Below, one piece after another: positions 16,797 to 29,037 of a DNA stretch of 51,659 nt (position 1 is its first letter; each line of letters begins with the position of its first letter). The position numbers were made by a program, and so were the translations under genes. Source of the stretch: Nitrospirota bacterium (GTDB lineage: Bacteria; Nitrospirota; Thermodesulfovibrionia; Thermodesulfovibrionales; UBA6898); NCBI GenBank assembly GCA_021783515.1, contig JAJXTV010000028.1, forward strand, positions 1 through 51,659, read 5' to 3'. A model generated the notes under the pieces. The model searched no databases. It saw only the letters and a program-made list of their open reading frames with translations, and was not told the origin of the DNA.

Positions 16797-17063
16797 ATGA
16801 ATACCGTAGCTGCACAGGAAATCAAGAGAAAGGGAATTTCCGCAGTAGATGAAGCGCTCAAGAATGGGCCTGTTCATGTTATCAAGAACAACCAGCCGCA
16901 ATATGTCGTGATAACAGAGACGCGGTATCGCGATCTCATCGAGGCTGAGGACGAGGCATTCAGCGAGCGCATCAAAAAGTCCCTGAAAGATGTGAAGGCA
17001 GGGAAGGTGCGACGTTTCAAGTCTGCGGATGAACTATTGAAGGCGATTGAGGAAGCGGGATAG
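16797..17063 (+). CDS. Phd/YefM-type antitoxin
   Basis: This 88-residue protein has the Phd/YefM DNA-binding fold at its N-terminus (IKRKGISAVDEAL, then VIKNNQPQYVVITETRYRDL). A charged, probably disordered toxin-binding tail (about 55-88, KKSLKDVKAG...) follows. It should neutralise the toxin encoded next to it and repress the shared promoter through the inverted repeat just upstream. AAGGAG precedes the ATG at good distance. Its TAG overlaps the toxin GTG by one base (TAGTG). Confidence 0.85.
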   Translation: MNTVAAQEIKRKGISAVDEALKNGPVHVIKNNQPQYVVITETRYRDLIEAEDEAFSERIKKSLKDVKAGKVRRFKSADELLKAIEEAG

Positions 17064-17338
17064 TGTACGCTATCTTAACTTCCGATTACTTCTTGAAACG
17101 AGCAAATAAATTCTTCAAAAAACATCCGGACTTAAGGGACCGATTCGCCCGCGTAGTCGATGACCTGAAAAAAGACCCATTTCAGCCGCGACTTGAATTG
17201 CATAGCCTCGGTGGGCAGTTAAAAGATATATGGGCAGTCAGTCTTTCACATGGCTACCGCATCACATTAAAAATAATGATCACGGAGAAGGAGATCCTGC
17301 TTCTCGACATCGGCAGCCATGACGAGGTCTATCGGTGA
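17063..17338 (+). CDS. RelE/YafQ-type mRNA interferase toxin
   Basis: A 91-residue RelE/ParE-superfamily toxin. Helices in KRANKFFKKHPDLRDRF are followed by a beta-sheet with LHSLGGQLKDIWAVSLSHGYRITL and a final LLDIGSHDEVYR, close to the YafQ/RelE signature (Arg in YRI, His in SHDEVY). Members cleave mRNA on the ribosome. The frame is intact, so the pair may be active. The stop TGA overlaps the GTG of the HsdS remnant (GTGA), showing that the module once led directly into a specificity subunit gene. Confidence 0.85.
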   Translation: MYAILTSDYFLKRANKFFKKHPDLRDRFARVVDDLKKDPFQPRLELHSLGGQLKDIWAVSLSHGYRITLKIMITEKEILLLDIGSHDEVYR

Positions 17339-18598: not shown

Positions 18599-18721
18599 CG
18601 ACAAAGAAGAAAATTCAGGCTATTAATTCACTCAGCTATGAAGATTGTGAACTATAAATGAAACCGATAAGGGGAAAAGAGAGAAACGAACTGATTGCCC
18701 TCGTTGAGGCAGAGGCCGCTA

Positions 18722-21064
18722 TTGGATAATATCAACAAGAAAGAACTCAGCGAAACAGATATCTGCGATCTGTTTATAACTCCAGCTATTAAGAATTCCG
18801 GCTGGGATCCCATCAAGCAAATCAGACGCGAAGTAACGCTGACGCCCGGCCCTGTCGTTGTAAGGGGAGAGATGTCGTCCCGCAATAAGAAAAAGAAAAA
18901 GTTTGCGGATTATGTGTTACATAAAGAACCTGGAGTGCCGGTTGCAGTAGTAGAAGCGAAAGACAATAACTGCACGATCAGCCAAGGGCTGCAGCAGGCT
19001 CTGGGTTATGCAGAAATACTACAGGTGCCAAGTGCATTCAGTTCGAACGGCGACGCCTTTGCCTCTCACAATAAAGTACCCGCAAAGGGTGAAGACATTG
19101 AAACGCAGTTGCCGCTCGATTCATTCCCGCCCCCTCAAGAGCTATGGGAGCGATTCAAGACTTTCCGTGGCATTGAAGATAAAGAAGAAAGCCTTGTGTT
19201 GGAGCCGTACCACTTCGACAGCTCAGGCAAGGAGCCCCGCTATTATCAGGTAGATGCCATCAACAGGACTGTTGAAGCAATAGCAAAAGGACAGAAGCGG
19301 GTTCTTCTCGTCATGGCCACTGGCACCGGGAAAACCTATACAACATTTCAGATTATCTGGCGTCTCTGGAAGGCAAAAGTTGTAAAAAGAATCCTTTTCC
19401 TGGTTGATCGGAATATTTTGGCCGATCAGACACTCGTGAATGACTTTAAACCCTTCGGCTCAGTAATGGCCAAAGTCAAGAACCGAAAGATCGATCCAGC
19501 ATATGAGATTCACCTTGCCCTTTATCAGGCCATAACAGGCCCGGACGAGGCTGACAAGATATTCAAAAGCGTTTCGCCTGATTTCTTTGATCTTATTGTC
19601 ATTGACGAGTGTCACAGAGGCAGCGCTGCAGATGATGCGGCATGGAAAGAAATCCTTTTGTACTTTTCAAATGCCATTCAGATTGGCATGACCGCGACTC
19701 CGAAAGAAACAAAATACGTTTCGAATATCACCTATTTTGGTGAGCCTGTCTACACCTATAGCCTTAAGCAGGGGATAGAGGATGGCTTTCTTGCGCCTTA
19801 CAAAGTCGTGCGCATCGACATCGACAAGGATATTCAGGGTTGGACTCCGCCACCCGGCATGAAAGACGACCTCGGGCAGGAGATCGAAGGCCGAACCTAT
19901 AACCAGAAAGATATGGATCGCATACTCGTGCTCAATCAGCGCACAAAGCTGGTTGCAAGGCGTGTAATGAAGCTGCTCAACGCAACTGACTCTTTCGCAA
20001 AAACCATAATCTTTTGTGAAGACATCGATCATGCCGAGAGGATGCGTTCAGCAATCGTTAATACCGCTGGACAGATTGCCATTGATAATCCCAAATATGT
20101 TATGCGCATCACTGGAGATAGCACGGAGGGTAAAGCCGAGCTTGATAACTTTATCGACCCTGAGAGCAAGTTCCCCGTCATTGCCACTACATCTGATCTG
20201 CTGACCACAGGCGTCGATGCGAAGACCTGCAAGCTTATCGTTCTGGATAAGACCATAACATCAATGACCGTGTTTAAGCAGATAATCGGGCGGGGTACGC
20301 GCATTGACGAGGAGTACAAGAAGTACTTTTTCACTATCATGGATTTCAAGAAAGCTACGGAACTTTTCAGAGATCCTGCCTTTGACGGCGATCCGGTTGT
20401 AATCTACGAGCCCGGCGATGATGATGACCCTGTTCCTCCAGACCCAGACGAACCTGATGGCGATGATGATGGCGAGGATGGTGAACCGCAGTATAAGATT
20501 GTTGTAAGCGGAGTGCCGGTCCAAATTGTTGCTGAGAGAGTGGAGTATTATGGGCCTGAAGGCAATCTGATTACTGAATCCTACCAAGACTTTACCCGTA
20601 AACAGATCAAGACAGAGTTTGCATCGCTGGATGAATTCCTGAAGCGTTGGAACACCGAGAAGAAGAAACAGACGATTATTGATCTGCTGGAAGAGCACGG
20701 AATAATACTTGAAAACCTCGCCAAAGAAGTCGGCAAGGACTATAGCGACTTTGATCTGATATGTCATATTGCATATGATCAGCCCCCTCTAACCAGAAAA
20801 GAGCGGGCTAATAATGTCAAAAAAAGAAACTACTTCACAAAATATGGGGATCAGGCAAAAGCAGTCCTTAACGCTCTGCTTGATAAATATGCCGATGGGG
20901 GTGTCGGTGCGATCGAAAATGCCAAGGTGCTAAAGCTGAAACCATTCAGCAGCATAGGAACCCCGATGGAAATTATCAATAATGTTTTTGGTGGCAAAGA
21001 CAATTACGAAACAGCAGTTCAGGAATTGGAACAAGCACTGTTCTATAAGGAAAAGTCAGCATGA
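18722..21064 (+). CDS. hsdR: Type I restriction enzyme subunit R (HsdR, EcoEI type)
   Basis: This is the motor and nuclease subunit of an ATP-dependent type I R-M complex. An N-terminal PD-(D/E)xK nuclease (Asp63, Glu78, Lys80 in ADYVL...VVEAK) is followed by superfamily 2 helicase motifs. ATGTGKT lies at 199-205, DECH at 295-298, TATPKET after it, and IIGRGTRIDE as motif VI. The C-terminus (FSSIGTPMEIINNVFGG) is complete. There is no early ATG. I prefer the TTG at 18722 because homologues begin about there (NINKKELSE) and a purine-rich GAGGCAGAGGC precedes it; the frame stays open to a TTG at 18695. The product is 780 residues. ATGA overlap with hsdM-S shows coupling. Confidence 0.9.
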   Translation: MDNINKKELSETDICDLFITPAIKNSGWDPIKQIRREVTLTPGPVVVRGEMSSRNKKKKKFADYVLHKEPGVPVAVVEAKDNNCTISQGLQQALGYAEILQVPSAFSSNGDAFASHNKVPAKGEDIETQLPLDSFPPPQELWERFKTFRGIEDKEESLVLEPYHFDSSGKEPRYYQVDAINRTVEAIAKGQKRVLLVMATGTGKTYTTFQIIWRLWKAKVVKRILFLVDRNILADQTLVNDFKPFGSVMAKVKNRKIDPAYEIHLALYQAITGPDEADKIFKSVSPDFFDLIVIDECHRGSAADDAAWKEILLYFSNAIQIGMTATPKETKYVSNITYFGEPVYTYSLKQGIEDGFLAPYKVVRIDIDKDIQGWTPPPGMKDDLGQEIEGRTYNQKDMDRILVLNQRTKLVARRVMKLLNATDSFAKTIIFCEDIDHAERMRSAIVNTAGQIAIDNPKYVMRITGDSTEGKAELDNFIDPESKFPVIATTSDLLTTGVDAKTCKLIVLDKTITSMTVFKQIIGRGTRIDEEYKKYFFTIMDFKKATELFRDPAFDGDPVVIYEPGDDDDPVPPDPDEPDGDDDGEDGEPQYKIVVSGVPVQIVAERVEYYGPEGNLITESYQDFTRKQIKTEFASLDEFLKRWNTEKKKQTIIDLLEEHGIILENLAKEVGKDYSDFDLICHIAYDQPPLTRKERANNVKKRNYFTKYGDQAKAVLNALLDKYADGGVGAIENAKVLKLKPFSSIGTPMEIINNVFGGKDNYETAVQELEQALFYKEKSA

Positions 21065-23421
21065 GTAACGTTTCAGGAATCATAAAGTCAATTCAAGATA
21101 TCATGCGCAAGGATGTCGGCGTAGACGGTGACGCCCAACGCATAAGCCAGTTGGTCTGGATGTTCTTTCTTAAAATCTTCGATGACCGAGAAGCAGAACT
21201 TGAACTGCTCGAAGACGACTACAAATCCCCCCTGCCTGAGCATCTGCGCTGGCGATCCTGGGCGAAAGACCCAGAAGGGATTACCGGTGAGCCTTTGGCC
21301 GACTTTGTAAACATGCAGCTCTTTCCTACATTGAAGGAAAAACTCGTCACGCATGGTCCGGCAGGCGAGCGCGCCCGAGTAGTGCGCAACGTGTTCGAGG
21401 ATGCATACAACTACATGAAGTCCGGCACGCTGATGCGTCAGGTCATTAACAAAATCTGCGAAATAGACTTCAACAACACAAGCGACCGTCACACATTCGG
21501 CAGCATCTACGAGCAGATACTCAGAGACCTTCAGAGTGCAGGTAATGCCGGCGAGTTTTACACCCCGCGTGCTGTTACCCGTTTCGTTGTCAACCGCATA
21601 GACCCAAAGCTGGAAGAATCAGTGCTCGATCCGGCCTGCGGCACTGGCGGCTTTTTGACATGTACCATTGATCACAAGCGCGAGCAGTATGTCAAAACCA
21701 GGGATAACGAGGAAAAACTTGTCGCGTCGCTTTATGGCGTCGAGAAGAAGGCCCTGCCGCACATGCTGGCGGTCACGAACATGATCCTGCATGGCATAGA
21801 CACGCCCACAAATATTAAACATGACAACACCTTGAGCCGTCCCTTGCGTGACTATACCAATAAAGACCGCGTTAATATCATAGTCACCAATCCGCCTTTC
21901 GGAGGTATGGAAGAGGACGGTATAGAAAACAACTTTCCGGCAACTTTCCGGACCCGTGAGACTGCAGACCTGTTTGTGACGTTGATTATTCATTTGCTCA
22001 AGGATCAGGGCCGTGCCGCCGTGGTCCTCCCGGATGGCTTCTTCTTTGGTGAAGGCATGAAGACCCGGCTCAAGGAAAAACTTCTTGAGGAGTGCAACCT
22101 GCACACTATCGTCCGGCTCCCAAACGGCGTCTTCAACCCATACACAGGCATCAAAACCAACATTTTGTTCTTCACCAAGGGCAAACCTACAGAGCACATC
22201 TGGTATTATGAACACCCTTATCCAGAAGGCATGAAGAGCTACAACAAGACCAATCCAATGCGCTTTGAGGAGTTTCAGCCTGAAATCGACTGGTGGGGAA
22301 GCGAGGCTGATGGCTTTACCTCAAGGGTTGAAACAGAACAGGCCTGGAAAGTTTCCATTGACGAGATCAAAGCGCATAACTATAACCTCGACATGAAGAA
22401 CCCTTATGTAGGGGAGCAAATCAGCCATGATCCCGATAAACTACTAAGAAAATATGCTGGGCATCAGAAAGAAATAGCCAAACTGTACAACCTGATAAAT
22501 AATAATCTTGTCGAGGCTCTTGAGAAAAATTCGGCAAAATCAATTGTGGAGTTGACAACAGAAAGTCTTGATATTTGGACAGCTGCACAAACTGCCAAAG
22601 CCACCGCTGGCCGTGGCAGCAATGGCAAGCAGGAAAGCTACGGCATAAGTAAGTTACGAGAGCTGATAATGGGAATGGCGCTGCGCGGGCTATTTGAAAA
22701 GGAAAACGAATCTCTAAAGGAAACTATTGATAGAGATATTAGCAATGCAAGAAATGCATACTTCAAGTCAATTCGAAAAAAGCCCAAAGAAATAAAATAT
22801 GGTGCCACCCTACTTAACGAATTCAAGCTGCCGGTGGGTTGGGCATGGAAGCGTGTCGGAGAATTATGTGACCTACAAACGGGAGCAACACCAAATACTC
22901 TTAAGCAAGAATATTTCGGAGGTGAAATTCGTTGGCTTGTTTCAGGCGATATCAATCAAGGAGTCATAGCAGATTGTGAAGGAAGAATTACCGAGGAGGG
23001 ACTTGCCAATAGCAACTGCAAAGTCTTGCCGCCCAATACAGTGTTGATTGCACTAAACGGGCAGGGCAAAACAAGAGCTTCAGTAGCACTGCTAAAAGTG
23101 CCTGCTGCATGTAATCAGTCGCTTGTCGGGATGATCCCATTCGACGAGAGTATTATCGCCCCAACATTCTTACTGCTTTCGCTCAAATATCGATACTATG
23201 AAATACGAGACATAACGGGCCAAAATCAGCGTCGCGGTCTGAATATGGGGCTGGTTTCGGAGCTGTCAATACCGCTAGCGCCCCTCACTGAACAACATCG
23301 CATTGTTGATAAAGTCGACAAACTCAGCGCCCTGTGCGATGAGTTAAAAGATCGAATTAATGAGACCCAAGATATTCAGGTCCAACTGGCTGACGCCATA
23401 GTTGAAAAGGCCGTGGGATAG
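21061..23421 (+). CDS. Fused type I methyltransferase-specificity protein (HsdM-HsdS)
   Basis: One 786-residue frame joins an N6-adenine methyltransferase to a half-size specificity subunit. The HsdM part (about 1-475) has the N-terminal helical domain, FYTPR (166-170), SAM motif DPACGTGGF (190-198) and catalytic NPPF (277-280). The HsdS part (about 525-786) begins with the helix SKLRELIMGMALRGLF. It has one target-recognition domain (about 590-745, LPVGWAWKRVGELCDLQTG...) and ends in a distal helix (LTEQHRIVDKVDKL...). Classical HsdS has two such domains. A dimer of this protein could supply both half-sites, giving a symmetric split recognition sequence (inference). It is coupled to hsdR by ATGA. 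Confidence 0.88.
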   Translation: MSNVSGIIKSIQDIMRKDVGVDGDAQRISQLVWMFFLKIFDDREAELELLEDDYKSPLPEHLRWRSWAKDPEGITGEPLADFVNMQLFPTLKEKLVTHGPAGERARVVRNVFEDAYNYMKSGTLMRQVINKICEIDFNNTSDRHTFGSIYEQILRDLQSAGNAGEFYTPRAVTRFVVNRIDPKLEESVLDPACGTGGFLTCTIDHKREQYVKTRDNEEKLVASLYGVEKKALPHMLAVTNMILHGIDTPTNIKHDNTLSRPLRDYTNKDRVNIIVTNPPFGGMEEDGIENNFPATFRTRETADLFVTLIIHLLKDQGRAAVVLPDGFFFGEGMKTRLKEKLLEECNLHTIVRLPNGVFNPYTGIKTNILFFTKGKPTEHIWYYEHPYPEGMKSYNKTNPMRFEEFQPEIDWWGSEADGFTSRVETEQAWKVSIDEIKAHNYNLDMKNPYVGEQISHDPDKLLRKYAGHQKEIAKLYNLINNNLVEALEKNSAKSIVELTTESLDIWTAAQTAKATAGRGSNGKQESYGISKLRELIMGMALRGLFEKENESLKETIDRDISNARNAYFKSIRKKPKEIKYGATLLNEFKLPVGWAWKRVGELCDLQTGATPNTLKQEYFGGEIRWLVSGDINQGVIADCEGRITEEGLANSNCKVLPPNTVLIALNGQGKTRASVALLKVPAACNQSLVGMIPFDESIIAPTFLLLSLKYRYYEIRDITGQNQRRGLNMGLVSELSIPLAPLTEQHRIVDKVDKLSALCDELKDRINETQDIQVQLADAIVEKAVG

Positions 23422-26083: not shown

Positions 26084-27400
26084 ATGAAACAACGATTGAT
26101 CTCGATATATTCGGATATACAGAATCAAGTTTTGCCAAAGCTTTCGTCGGAAGAGCAGGGTAATATCTTAGCATTAAAGGACCTGCTTGGCAGTCAGAAT
26201 GTAACATTACAGGCAAATGATGTCTTGTCTATAAAACACTATGTTGGCTTCATTGCTCGTGGCGGAACCAGGCTTCAGATCTTGCCAAAAATATATGCAG
26301 ATTTTGCCTCGATAGATGCTGAAGAAGAAAAGAATGCCTCGATATCTCTTTTGCTTCGCCTGCTTTCCTATTCGGACTATTTGGGTTACAAGGAAATCCC
26401 GGATCCTCAATCTATTAAGTCATGCGACAATGATCTGTTTGAAATATTTATCAGTATTTTTGCATCTCGCTTCATGGATGTCGTTAAAAGAAATGTTCAC
26501 CGCGCGTATGAGCCATTCGAAGAAAATAGGCAATTTATCAAAGGTAAAATACTATTCCATGAAACGATTCTGAAAAATTCATTTCGAAAAGATAGGCACT
26601 ATGTCCGCTACGATGCATTTACCGAAAACACACTATTAAACCGGATTTTTAAGACGGTAATCCTGCACCTATTATCCGAAACAGGCCTAAGCGAAAACAA
26701 AAAGAAATTGAAATTGGCGCTCAATCATCTTGAAGAGGTTGAGCCTGTTCGATTGTTTAATGGTATTTTCGATAGGGTAATTTTTAATCGAATGACTGAG
26801 GTATATCGGCCTGTTTATGCTATGGCCAAACTACTCTATTACAACAGACAGCCGGGCTTTTCAGACGGGGACGAGTATACCTTCACATTTTTAGTGCCAC
26901 TGAATAAACTATTTGAATACTATGCATATAAACTGATAGATAATTATGGCTTTGACACAGGATTCTACGTCCGCTATCAAGGGCCGGAAAGATATTTGGC
27001 AAAACAGGGAGCTGCGAGTCAGTTTCCTTTGTACCCCGATATTACGATATTTCGAAAAGAAGAAACATCGCCAGGATATATTGTTGATGCGAAATTCAAA
27101 AATCCGTTTAATGGTGCTGAACAAATAAACCTAACGTCAACGGATATCTATCAAATCGTTACCTATGCAATTTGTTATCAGTGTAAAAATGTATTCCTTT
27201 TGTATCCGCGCTTCAAGGGTCAGCCTGAACGCGGCTGCTTGCTCGCAACCTACAACATTCCTACTGAAACAGGGCAAATCAGTTTGAAGATTCTGCAGAT
27301 TGATATAATGGATGCTGACAATAATAAAATACAGCAGCAACTCGTCAGCAACATTCTTGATATGCAACCTGTGAATCAGTTCTCAGTTGTGTCATCATGA
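26084..27400 (+). CDS. mcrC: McrC-family nuclease subunit
   Basis: This 438-residue partner of McrB cuts DNA containing modified bases. The N-terminal region contacts the McrB ring. The C-terminal nuclease has the PD-(D/E)xK pattern in YPDITIF ... YIVDAKFKNP ... QIVTYAICY (Asp, Asp, Lys, Gln). It starts 19 bases after mcrB, so the two form an operon. GC content is as low as in mcrB and clearly below the core genes. Length and motifs look intact. Confidence 0.88.
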   Translation: MKQRLISIYSDIQNQVLPKLSSEEQGNILALKDLLGSQNVTLQANDVLSIKHYVGFIARGGTRLQILPKIYADFASIDAEEEKNASISLLLRLLSYSDYLGYKEIPDPQSIKSCDNDLFEIFISIFASRFMDVVKRNVHRAYEPFEENRQFIKGKILFHETILKNSFRKDRHYVRYDAFTENTLLNRIFKTVILHLLSETGLSENKKKLKLALNHLEEVEPVRLFNGIFDRVIFNRMTEVYRPVYAMAKLLYYNRQPGFSDGDEYTFTFLVPLNKLFEYYAYKLIDNYGFDTGFYVRYQGPERYLAKQGAASQFPLYPDITIFRKEETSPGYIVDAKFKNPFNGAEQINLTSTDIYQIVTYAICYQCKNVFLLYPRFKGQPERGCLLATYNIPTETGQISLKILQIDIMDADNNKIQQQLVSNILDMQPVNQFSVVSS

Positions 27401-27659
27401 AGGCCATATGCCTGGAATCGTTCTCGTCCTGTCCCTGGGCGGCCCTGAGAGTGTCAATAATAATGACACTGCCCGGCGGCAGAGCCTTGTAAAGGTGCCA
27501 TTCAGCTGAGTCAAGTCTGGGCGGCCTCACTTGATTGTTCGAAGCATGCCAAAAAAGGACATCTTCGATCCCTATTCTCTTGACTCTGTCAACCAGCACC
27601 GGGAGGGAGTTCTCGAAATCGACTACGACTACCGGTAGCTGCCGCGTTTCAAGCCCCAT
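27345..27659 (-). pseudogene. Remnant of a RepA/AAA_25-type helicase ATPase
   Basis: On the minus strand the stretch from 27659 to about 27400 reads VVVVDFENSLPVLVDRVKRIGI ... VLFWHASN ... PPRLDSAEWHLYKALPPGSVIIIDTLRAAQGQDEN. This is the central Walker B region of RepA-like hexameric ATPases used by plasmids and phages. The Walker A half is absent upstream, and the frame runs into the end of mcrC, where homology stops. It is a fragment of a mobile-element replication gene whose other end was probably lost when McrBC arrived. Confidence 0.6.
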
Positions 27660-27780: not shown

Positions 27781-27809
27781 TTGACTTTTGTCCCCAAAAG
27801 TAATAATGT
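27781..27809 (+). promoter_or_regulatory. Promoter with embedded operator for the 27816 module
   Basis: TTGACT (27781-27786) and TAATGT (27804-27809) are 17 bases apart. The start codon begins seven bases after the -10 box. The spacer contains the perfect inverted repeat ACTTTTG-TCCC-CAAAAGT (27784-27801). A wider pair, GACTTT/AAAGTC (27783-27788 and 27810-27815), surrounds it. A bound regulator would block polymerase directly. Confidence 0.5.
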
Positions 27810-27815
27810 AAAGTC

Positions 27816-28223
27816 ATGGCGGAGAGCGATATAGATTTGATTTTGGCAAGAGTATTAGGGGCATCGGAAGAGCCCTCAATACAGCAACTGGCCTTATACA
27901 TTCCGAATAAAGACAAAAACGGCAAACAGATAAAGAATTATGACCGGTGGGTGCAGGCGGCTGAAGGAATCCTGGCTCGTATAGGAGGCGGGGCAACGGC
28001 GCTGCCGCCCGCAGACGGCACATGGTTGAATCCTGAAAACGGTGATATTGTCCAGGAGAAGACGAAGATAATCTATACATACGTCTATCCTGAGAAGTTC
28101 GAGGAAAATATTGGATTGCTCAGAGAATTCCTGCATAGATTTGGCCGGGAAACAAATCAGGGAGAAGTGGTGATCGAATTCGACGGCCGATTTTACAGGA
28201 TTCGAAAATACGATGTGCAATGA
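27816..28223 (+). CDS. Uncharacterised protein, first gene of a two-gene module
   Basis: A 135-residue soluble protein with no recognised domain. It begins with a helical part (MAESDIDLILARVLG) and continues through YIPNKDKNGKQIKNYDRWVQAAEGILARIGGGATALPP. It ends in a conserved-looking block, LREFLHRFGRETNQGEVVIEFDGRFYRI. I recall similar unnamed proteins in scattered bacteria, but no function. There is no Shine-Dalgarno sequence; a promoter with an embedded inverted repeat ends just before the ATG. The partner gene follows after 23 bases. Small size, pairing, an operator and an island location would suit a toxin-antitoxin or similar module, by inference only. Confidence 0.7.
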   Translation: MAESDIDLILARVLGASEEPSIQQLALYIPNKDKNGKQIKNYDRWVQAAEGILARIGGGATALPPADGTWLNPENGDIVQEKTKIIYTYVYPEKFEENIGLLREFLHRFGRETNQGEVVIEFDGRFYRIRKYDVQ

Positions 28224-28246
28224 AACAACAATAAGGAGCAAGTAAC

Positions 28247-28633
28247 ATGGCAAGGAAAATCAAGGATACAGGGAAAACTCAGAGACGCGTCAATCCTAAG
28301 CTCGTTGCAAAAGCATTGGGCGCCGAGGACATAGGGGTCGAAATAGACACGAGGCAAGGCCCGATTTCTCTGTTAACGCTGCGGCAGTTTCTTCTGGGGA
28401 AGCTGTCCTCTACGGGAGGGCGGCCTCGCTTGCGGGGAACGAGAAAGACACGGAGCAAGATATCCTTCTTCGATGAGGATTGGGAAAAGATTGAGATGCT
28501 TTCGAAGTATTATCGTGAGGAAGAAGGCATTAACGTAACTTCGAGCCAAATTGCGTCCGCGCTGCTGCATGCGGAAGTGTCGAAGATAGATACTTCGGAG
28601 ATAAAATTCAAAACACATTCCGCTTCGAAGTAA
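28247..28633 (+). CDS. Uncharacterised protein, second gene of the module
   Basis: A 128-residue basic protein. The N-terminus is Lys/Arg-rich (MARKIKDTGKTQRRVNPKLVAKALGAE). A middle TLRQFLLGKLSSTGGRPRLRGTRKTRSKI is followed by the helix DWEKIEMLSKYYREEEGINVTSSQIASALLHAEVSKI. The charge and the Thr-Ser-Ser-Gln-helix pattern suggest nucleic-acid binding, but no named family is recognised. AAGGAG precedes the ATG. It is a candidate for the factor acting on the inverted repeat in the promoter upstream of its partner. Confidence 0.7.
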   Translation: MARKIKDTGKTQRRVNPKLVAKALGAEDIGVEIDTRQGPISLLTLRQFLLGKLSSTGGRPRLRGTRKTRSKISFFDEDWEKIEMLSKYYREEEGINVTSSQIASALLHAEVSKIDTSEIKFKTHSASK

Positions 28634-28656: not shown

Positions 28657-29037
28657 TCAATCACCCAAGAACGCCTGTTTGATTCTTGCCGGCGTCAGGT
28701 TCGCCGCTATATCAGTTAGGACCACTTTCCCCAGTCTCAGGGCATAAGCCCTGTCAGCTATTTCGAGCACGCTTTTTACGTTCTGTTCCCCAATGAGTAT
28801 GGATGTCTTGAATTGTGTGGAAATATTCTTTATCGTCTCGAATGATTTCTTCACCGCCTTAGGCGATAGGCCAAGGGATGGCTCGTCGAGAAGAAGGACT
28901 TCAGGCCTCAGCATCAATGCCCGGCCGAGGGCGAGCATCTGCTTTTCCCCACCGCTCAAATTCCCGGCGTCTGCACCCTTCCGCTTTCCGATCTCAGGGG
29001 AAAGGTCATAGAAATGAACCGGAAATATACCGTGCAA
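28657..29037 (-). pseudogene. Truncated livF (branched-chain amino acid ABC transporter ATPase)
   Basis: The C-terminal half of a LivF-type ATPase is preserved. The ABC signature NLSGGEKQML, Walker B with EVLLLDEPSLGLSP, the LivF hallmark IGEQNVKSVLEIADRAYAL and the end LTPARIKQAFLGD are all present. The Walker A half is missing; homology begins near 29010, and the preceding codons are unrelated. With no ATP-binding loop it cannot work. It is the broken edge of a core operon at the right border of the island. No other liv genes are near. Confidence 0.8.

Follow-up and report, generated by a model that had tools for sequence, protein, structure and literature searches.

Two small genes of no recognised family stand one behind the other near the putative edge of a genomic island, preceded by a promoter that seems to carry its own operator. 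What does such a pair encode, and why should it regulate itself? The question arises from a stretch of 51,659 nucleotides from a Nitrospirota bacterium (contig JAJXTV010000028.1; hereafter the window), in which a first-pass annotation based on the letters alone had proposed a two-gene unit with its own operator, possibly a toxin-antitoxin or anti-phage pair. Both frames, here ORF1 and ORF2, were found at the positions given there (Table 1), and an operator is kept upstream of distant ORF1 genes as well, so this part of the proposal stands. The two genes are separated by 23 bp, share the one promoter ahead of both, and occur once each in the 3.16-Mb genome. The open frame of ORF1 extends only 3 codons 5' of its ATG (138 versus 135). 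Judged from the comparison of the window with genome G100, purifying selection acts on both genes (dN/dS of 0.13 for ORF1 and 0.07 for ORF2).

Table 1. Positions of the gene pair, its control region and the neighbouring frames in the window
Feature	Position	Strand	Description
Two adjoining small frames	16797-17338		by eye an antitoxin/RelE-type pair
HsdR	18695-21064		type I restriction system
HsdM-HsdS	21061-23421		fused in one frame (N6_Mtase + Methylase_S)
104-aa frame	27345-27659	-	AAA_25, E 1e-6; overlaps the end of the McrC gene
Promoter with built-in operator	27781-27815	+	from sequence; conserved between genomes
-35 box TTGACT	27781-27786	+	from sequence
Wider frame, left arm GACTTT	27783-27788		putative outer repeat
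Operator dyad ACTTTTG-TCCC-CAAAAGT	27784-27801	+	inverted repeat
Hexamer TAATGT	27804-27809	+	from sequence; spacing of 17 from the -35 box
Wider frame, right arm AAAGTC	27810-27815		putative outer repeat
ORF1	27816-28223	+	135 aa; SAM-lyase-like, PII-type ferredoxin fold (predicted)
ORF2	28247-28633	+	128 aa; probable ribbon-helix-helix repressor
126-aa frame	28657-29037	-	only the last part of ABC_tran

The pair is a conserved two-gene unit with a patchy spread, as judged from profile searches. In the window's phylum, phrog_3543 used as a query matched 2 of 295 genomes, and a five-sequence ORF1 profile then matched 6 of 395; the sixth match was weak, contained an internal stop and was dropped, leaving the pair in 5 genomes. 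In the reciprocal search, an ORF2 profile strongly matched the same 5 genomes, adjoining ORF1 each time, and its own sixth match, weak and inside a 528-aa frame, was dropped too. Across the 392 genomes of the planctomycete phylum, ORF1-profile matches were found at 17 places in 9 genomes. An ORF2-like gene lies directly downstream at 7 of these, in 6 genomes (two loci in G568 and one each in G404, G681, G724, G441 and G485), another small coupled gene at 8 (group B; five in G441, two in G485, one in G657), and 2 weak places were dropped; the weak matches left out of our counts are those in G237, G482, G793 and G188. ORF1 comes first in every pair. The copy in G100, a genome of the same order and another family, is 84% (ORF1) and 90% (ORF2) identical to that of the window, and the copy in a planctomycete metagenome-assembled genome (L003, G404) is 69% identical for either gene. 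DNA similarity among these three copies runs from the promoter TTGACTT to the ORF2 stop. A search of 101 genomes returned the pair only from the window's genome and G100; it was absent from the 4 congeners among them, two of which are incomplete.

Group B (L047-L054, on planctomycete contigs) forms a parallel two-gene architecture, with up to five copies in one genome. Here the ORF1-like gene ends in a stop codon that overlaps the beginning of the second small frame. In 7 of 8 cases the product of this second frame is a short protein, rich in Lys/Arg over part of its length; the eighth frame runs off its contig.

The operator dyad begins within the -35 box and occupies most of the spacer. Taken alone, its perfect repeat is weak evidence of an operator: when the 156-bp intergenic stretch was sampled 2000 times from a Markov model, 12% of the samples contained a 7-bp perfect repeat with a loop of up to 12, and for the 35-bp promoter stretch the figure was 1.7%. 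We nevertheless consider the dyad real, because it is conserved upstream of distant ORF1 genes. In leave-one-group-out matrix scans, to which five divergent groups contribute, a 21-bp site overlapping the -35 box was the top 21-mer of its locus at 8 of the 12 pair loci, ranking first among 8,770 to 103,278 positions (the site in G267 ranked second, behind its own reverse strand). The sites were initially chosen by eye in the upstream stretches, and that of G441, noticed last, was excluded from every training set. The scan detected no site at the other 4 loci (G568:C51, G681, G724 and G485). Of its 9 symmetric positions the site retains 6-7. In G160 and G318, C-G stands in place of a symmetric T-A pair, the kind of paired change expected if a dimer binds the dyad. 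The inverted repeat singled out by the first-pass annotation has thus gained weight as an operator; the wider repeat proposed to frame it is present in the window and G100 and was not kept in the planctomycete copy.

At up to 3 mismatches the 21-bp site occurs a single time in the 3.16-Mb genome, which leaves the module itself as the apparent target. The message of ORF1 is probably leaderless, since the ATG, judged by spacing, sits about where transcription should begin. The distance from promoter to ATG is identical in G100 and G267, and the operator site of G160 lies 87 bp upstream of ORF1. The exact promoter pattern matched 0 viral contigs, and a looser operator pattern matched 36 stretches; in the DNA searched around these, no frame resembled ORF1 or ORF2 (E up to 0.1).

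If the operator serves the module, which product binds it? ORF2 consists of an N-terminal part, a GRP motif at residues 58-60 and a strand-helix-helix at about residues 70-112, with GRP preceding the strand-helix-helix in 9 of the 12 copies. The operator is present with 8 of these 9 and with 0 of the 3 that lack GRP. Compared with 30 RHH_1 segments from related genomes, the ORF2 profile gave P 0.0017 at an hhalign probability of only 15.7, in an alignment spanning exactly the strand-helix-helix. Its score of 20.02 was reached by none of 100 column shuffles (best 15.96), and the reversed profile gave P 0.13. Pfam returned no ribbon-helix-helix match for ORF2, and the PDB profile search with ORF2 returned no ribbon-helix-helix chain, which counts against the hhalign result. 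The AlphaFold model, with helices at 76-93 and 99-108, is too poor (pLDDT 42.8) for a fold search to be of value. A palindromic operator as putative binding site, a feature of ribbon-helix-helix repressors, accompanies the gene at 8 of the 12 pair loci. Taken together, ORF2 is likely a ribbon-helix-helix repressor on evidence of moderate strength, and the earlier description of a nucleic-acid-binding-like second protein may be narrowed to this type by the profile comparison.

For ORF1, we found no family in Pfam, NCBIfam or PADLOC, and no known toxin family among the matches. Its confident AlphaFold model, built from 22 sequences (pLDDT 88.1, pTM 0.81), has the phage SAM lyase Svi3-3 (6zm9), an enzyme that destroys S-adenosylmethionine (SAM), the methyl donor of the cell, as best solved match in Foldseek (E 6.3e-6, probability 1.00, TM 0.56), followed among non-lyases by a NIF3-related protein (E 1.6e-3), with the first CutA at E 2.5e-3. 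VIA-align also placed Svi3-3 first (Z 7.5), tied with a designed ferredoxin fold (7.3) and with CutA near (6.6). The PDB profile search agreed, with Svi3-3 on top at E 0.0032 and the next match at E 0.31. In BFVD, the best matches of the model were uncharacterised phage proteins, and annotated SAM hydrolases followed at ranks 36 and 46. Membership of ORF1 in the CutA/PII proteins was considered and rejected: they are neighbours in structure only, and none was among the 14 PDB profile matches (E up to 10).

The predicted fold and the size of ORF1 resemble those of Svi3-3 and the T3 SAMase, and although sequence identity to SAM lyases is very low, the ligand contacts of Svi3-3 recur: the profile alignment pairs its Gly56, Glu69 and Gln104 with G68, E81 and Q115 of ORF1. 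We followed these positions through a selection of 33 ORF1-family proteins, comprising 10 of the 12 pair proteins (the G318 and G485 fragments excluded), 6 of 8 from group B, 15 from the 24 viral loci (duplicates and near-duplicates excluded) and 2 from four annotated phage or plasmid regions. G68 and Q115 are invariant in all 33, and the position of E81 holds Glu in 21 and Asp in 12. Only four columns are identical throughout (P30, G59, G68 and Q115), and a further five are conserved in class, among them W70 and E81. Unlike Svi3-3, ORF1 has Trp for Tyr58 (W70; aromatic in 33 of 33) and Gly for Glu105 (G116; Glu or Asp at this site in 18 of 33), so the two residues that enclose the ligand in Svi3-3 are not kept in it.

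In PMC7877911, Gly56, Glu69, Gln104 and Tyr58 are named as conserved SAMase ligand contacts and three residues are called strictly conserved in SAMases. On our reading these three are Gly56, Glu69 and Gln104; if Tyr58 were among them, ORF1 would miss a defining SAMase feature. The same paper reports that E69Q and E69A nearly abolish the activity of Svi3-3, and that Y58F and E105Q cause 5- and 3-fold losses.

Direct comparison with nine T3-type enzymes gave weak profile-profile signals, at P 0.0077 (probability 5) for the phage relatives of ORF1 and P 0.039 (probability 1) for phage relatives and pair proteins combined, and hhalign found nothing with the pair proteins alone (P 0.73). In the T3 alignment, the Gly and Gln are in register, but E81 is paired with T3 E67, the residue that precedes the catalytic E68. 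Plain HMM scoring did not lift the T3 enzyme above shuffles in either direction, and in the reverse HMM search ORF1 proteins were not separable from shuffles. The nearest enzyme was that of Vibrio phage ICP3, for which the shuffles that scored as well numbered 5 to 8 of 2700 under the combined profiles, 37 under the phage-only profile and 313 under the pair-only profile. The SAM-lyase assignment of ORF1 therefore draws on the fold, the Svi3-3 profile match and the active-site conservation taken together, from which we infer that the protein most likely binds and cleaves SAM or a SAM conjugate. As an aside, the T3 SAM lyase (L109 901-1359) is labelled 'SAM-dependent methyltransferase' both in its record and in PHROG (phrog_2226).

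Where else does ORF1 occur? It matches phrog_3543 (E 1.9e-7), and its remote relatives are found in phages of Bacillus and Lactobacillus and in Bacillus-group plasmids. Single-sequence matches to these relatives are weak (E 0.04 to 0.9), but with the pair profile each of the 28 phage, plasmid and viral loci reaches E 2.8e-19 to 7.7e-6. The ORF2 profiles detected no ORF2-like frame (E up to 1) in the roughly 1 to 4 kb searched to either side of these loci. In the window's phylum the two genes are strictly co-located, the same 5 genomes holding both; at 28 of 28 phage and plasmid loci the ORF1 relative stands without an ORF2-like gene. Searches with tblastn for ORF1 and ORF2 in phages and plasmids gave no relatives at E 0.01, nor did three scans of viral contigs. 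Seven of the eight plasmid relatives are annotated as DUF3574; ORF1 itself does not match DUF3574 (PF12098), and two of four phage and plasmid relatives score 13-15 bits, below the cut-off of 25. In two solo relatives (L062 and L009) the N terminus is hydrophobic, which may mean that part of the family is exported or sits in the membrane.

In the window, the module follows a type I restriction system and McrBC. G+C content is 44-45% in the island, 57-58% in the flanks and 48% in the pair. No exact repeat of the tRNA-Ala end of at least 12 bp was found between 16.5 and 30.5 kb, and the island edge is putative. Several frames nearby deserve mention in their own right: the type I methyltransferase is fused in one frame to a single specificity domain, the 104-aa frame beside the McrC gene looks like a remnant, the 126-aa frame downstream of ORF2 is as expected of a truncated gene, and the two adjoining small frames that look like an antitoxin/RelE-type pair had no Pfam match at 1e-5.

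The first-pass annotation saw in this setting a fit to a new toxin-antitoxin or anti-phage pair. The idea that the pair regularly lies near defence genes was dropped after we inspected 10 neighbours, drawn from 6 of the 11 pair loci outside the window, which did not bear it out. They comprise a sigma-54 regulator with a TPR protein (G160), a sigma-54 regulator with a Y1 transposase (G267), a Panacea-type antitoxin (G318), a TPR protein and one protein without family (G568), an amine oxidase (G724), and a DnaB-type helicase with one protein without family (G404). PADLOC matches among them arise through common AAA, HTH and TPR domains, and none is clearly a defence system. From these neighbours, the pair seems to be tied to mobility rather than to restriction.

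The reading that we favour, at a probability of about one half, is a mobile, self-regulated two-gene cassette in which a SAM-lyase-like ORF1 and a ribbon-helix-helix repressor ORF2 share one promoter. It joins what can be read directly from the sequences (the pair and its operator are conserved, the active-site residues line up with those of Svi3-3, selection is purifying and the spread patchy) to predicted folds, and from these we infer activity, substrate, repression, timing and role. ORF1 would be a trimeric PII-type SAM-lyase-like protein yielding methylthioadenosine (or a conjugate of it) and homoserine lactone, and ORF2 would bind the promoter dyad and shut off both genes. In a cell without ORF2, the unrepressed promoter would allow a burst of ORF1, SAM would fall, and SAM-dependent restriction would be blunted while the element settles; ORF2 would then build up and stop ORF1. 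Phage SAM lyases are reported to neutralise restriction and BREX (PMC12255297), and the T3 SAMase to be toxic at higher expression (PMC7877911); these two properties suggest a cassette that becomes active ahead of its own repressor. As ORF1 resembles the SAM lyases with which phages counter restriction, we consider a role against defence to be no less likely than one in defence. Only tentatively do we go further and regard the pair as a new mobile module that sets a SAM-destroying lyase under a ribbon-helix-helix repressor, and as either the first SAM-depletion type of toxin-antitoxin or a zygotically induced anti-restriction cassette.

The main rival, which we hold to be rather unlikely, is a type II-like toxin-antitoxin system with the toxin first, ORF1 acting by SAM depletion and ORF2 being antitoxin and autorepressor at once. 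Two small adjoining genes in a tight operon with their own operator have the expected layout at the sequence level, and the reported T3 SAMase toxicity (PMC7877911) is in line with such a toxin. The pattern of gene damage is compatible with a gene that is costly without its partner: ORF1 is damaged and ORF2 open at 3 of the 12 pair loci, namely G404 (no usual start codon and an in-frame stop), G318 (N-terminal half missing) and G485 (only a C-terminal piece), the reverse holds at one (G441), and 8 look intact. This 3-to-1 difference is, however, one of small numbers from draft genomes. No toxin family was matched in Pfam, NCBIfam or PADLOC, and the phage and plasmid loci all carry an ORF1 relative with no ORF2-like gene nearby, which speaks against a toxin-antitoxin pair in the strict sense, albeit through distant relatives.

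Less probable still is a small regulatory circuit in which ORF1, as a PII-type protein without catalysis, senses SAM or a related nucleotide and thereby adjusts how ORF2 binds DNA. The next structural neighbours of ORF1 include CutA and PII folds, the interface concerned is also where PII proteins take up their ligands (PMC7877911), and the two genes are inseparable in the window's phylum. Against a sensor, the operator occurs once in the genome, so that no other target is apparent, the catalytic position is acidic throughout the 33 family proteins, and the phage forms that stand solo would have no partner. Another catalytic reading makes ORF1 a SAM-AMP lyase acting on a type III CRISPR signal, as an anti-CRISPR or an off-switch. 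SAM-AMP lyases, known from a bacterium and a phage, resemble ORF1 in its predicted PII superfamily fold and in the Glu and Gln that are catalytic in them, and they belong to CorA/Cas10 systems (PMC12255297). The window's genome, by contrast, is 98.7% complete and contains no match to the Cas10 palm, which makes SAM-AMP lysis the least likely activity in this genome, and we consider this explanation very improbable. Among the 11 pair-bearing genomes, a Cas10 palm match exceeds the family cut-off in 3 and falls short of it in 3 others; the family is not specific, because E. coli in the control set also matches.

How does the favoured cassette compare with known systems? BrnTA-type modules have a toxin-like gene first, a ribbon-helix-helix-type antitoxin second and the operator in the shared promoter, and BrnT has an RNase-like fold. 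Gene order and operator placement are alike in our pair, whereas the predicted fold of ORF1 is PII/SAM-lyase-like instead of RNase-like. The T3 SAMase is an early phage gene; ORF1, in contrast, belongs to a chromosomal pair with a probable cognate repressor. Likewise, the examples of phrog_3543, phrog_31027 and DUF3574 that we saw are single genes without an assigned function, while ORF1 is paired and without a Pfam match. In the open-licence PMC literature, we found no description of a SAM lyase combined with a ribbon-helix-helix protein, no mention of phrog_3543 and nothing related by title for DUF3574; none of the matches listed ties a SAM-lyase-like gene to a repressor and operator of this type. 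The components thus have known kin, and the combination of a SAM-lyase-like gene with its own ribbon-helix-helix-type repressor and operator is the element that appears new relative to the literature searched.

So far, SAM lyases have been described in phages, and those of the SAM-AMP type in CRISPR systems. If our reading is correct, a chromosomal, mobile and self-repressed relative would show how cells or plasmids can carry such a costly activity. It would also suggest a likely function for phrog_3543, a phage family without one, and place the DUF3574-annotated plasmid relatives in the same frame.
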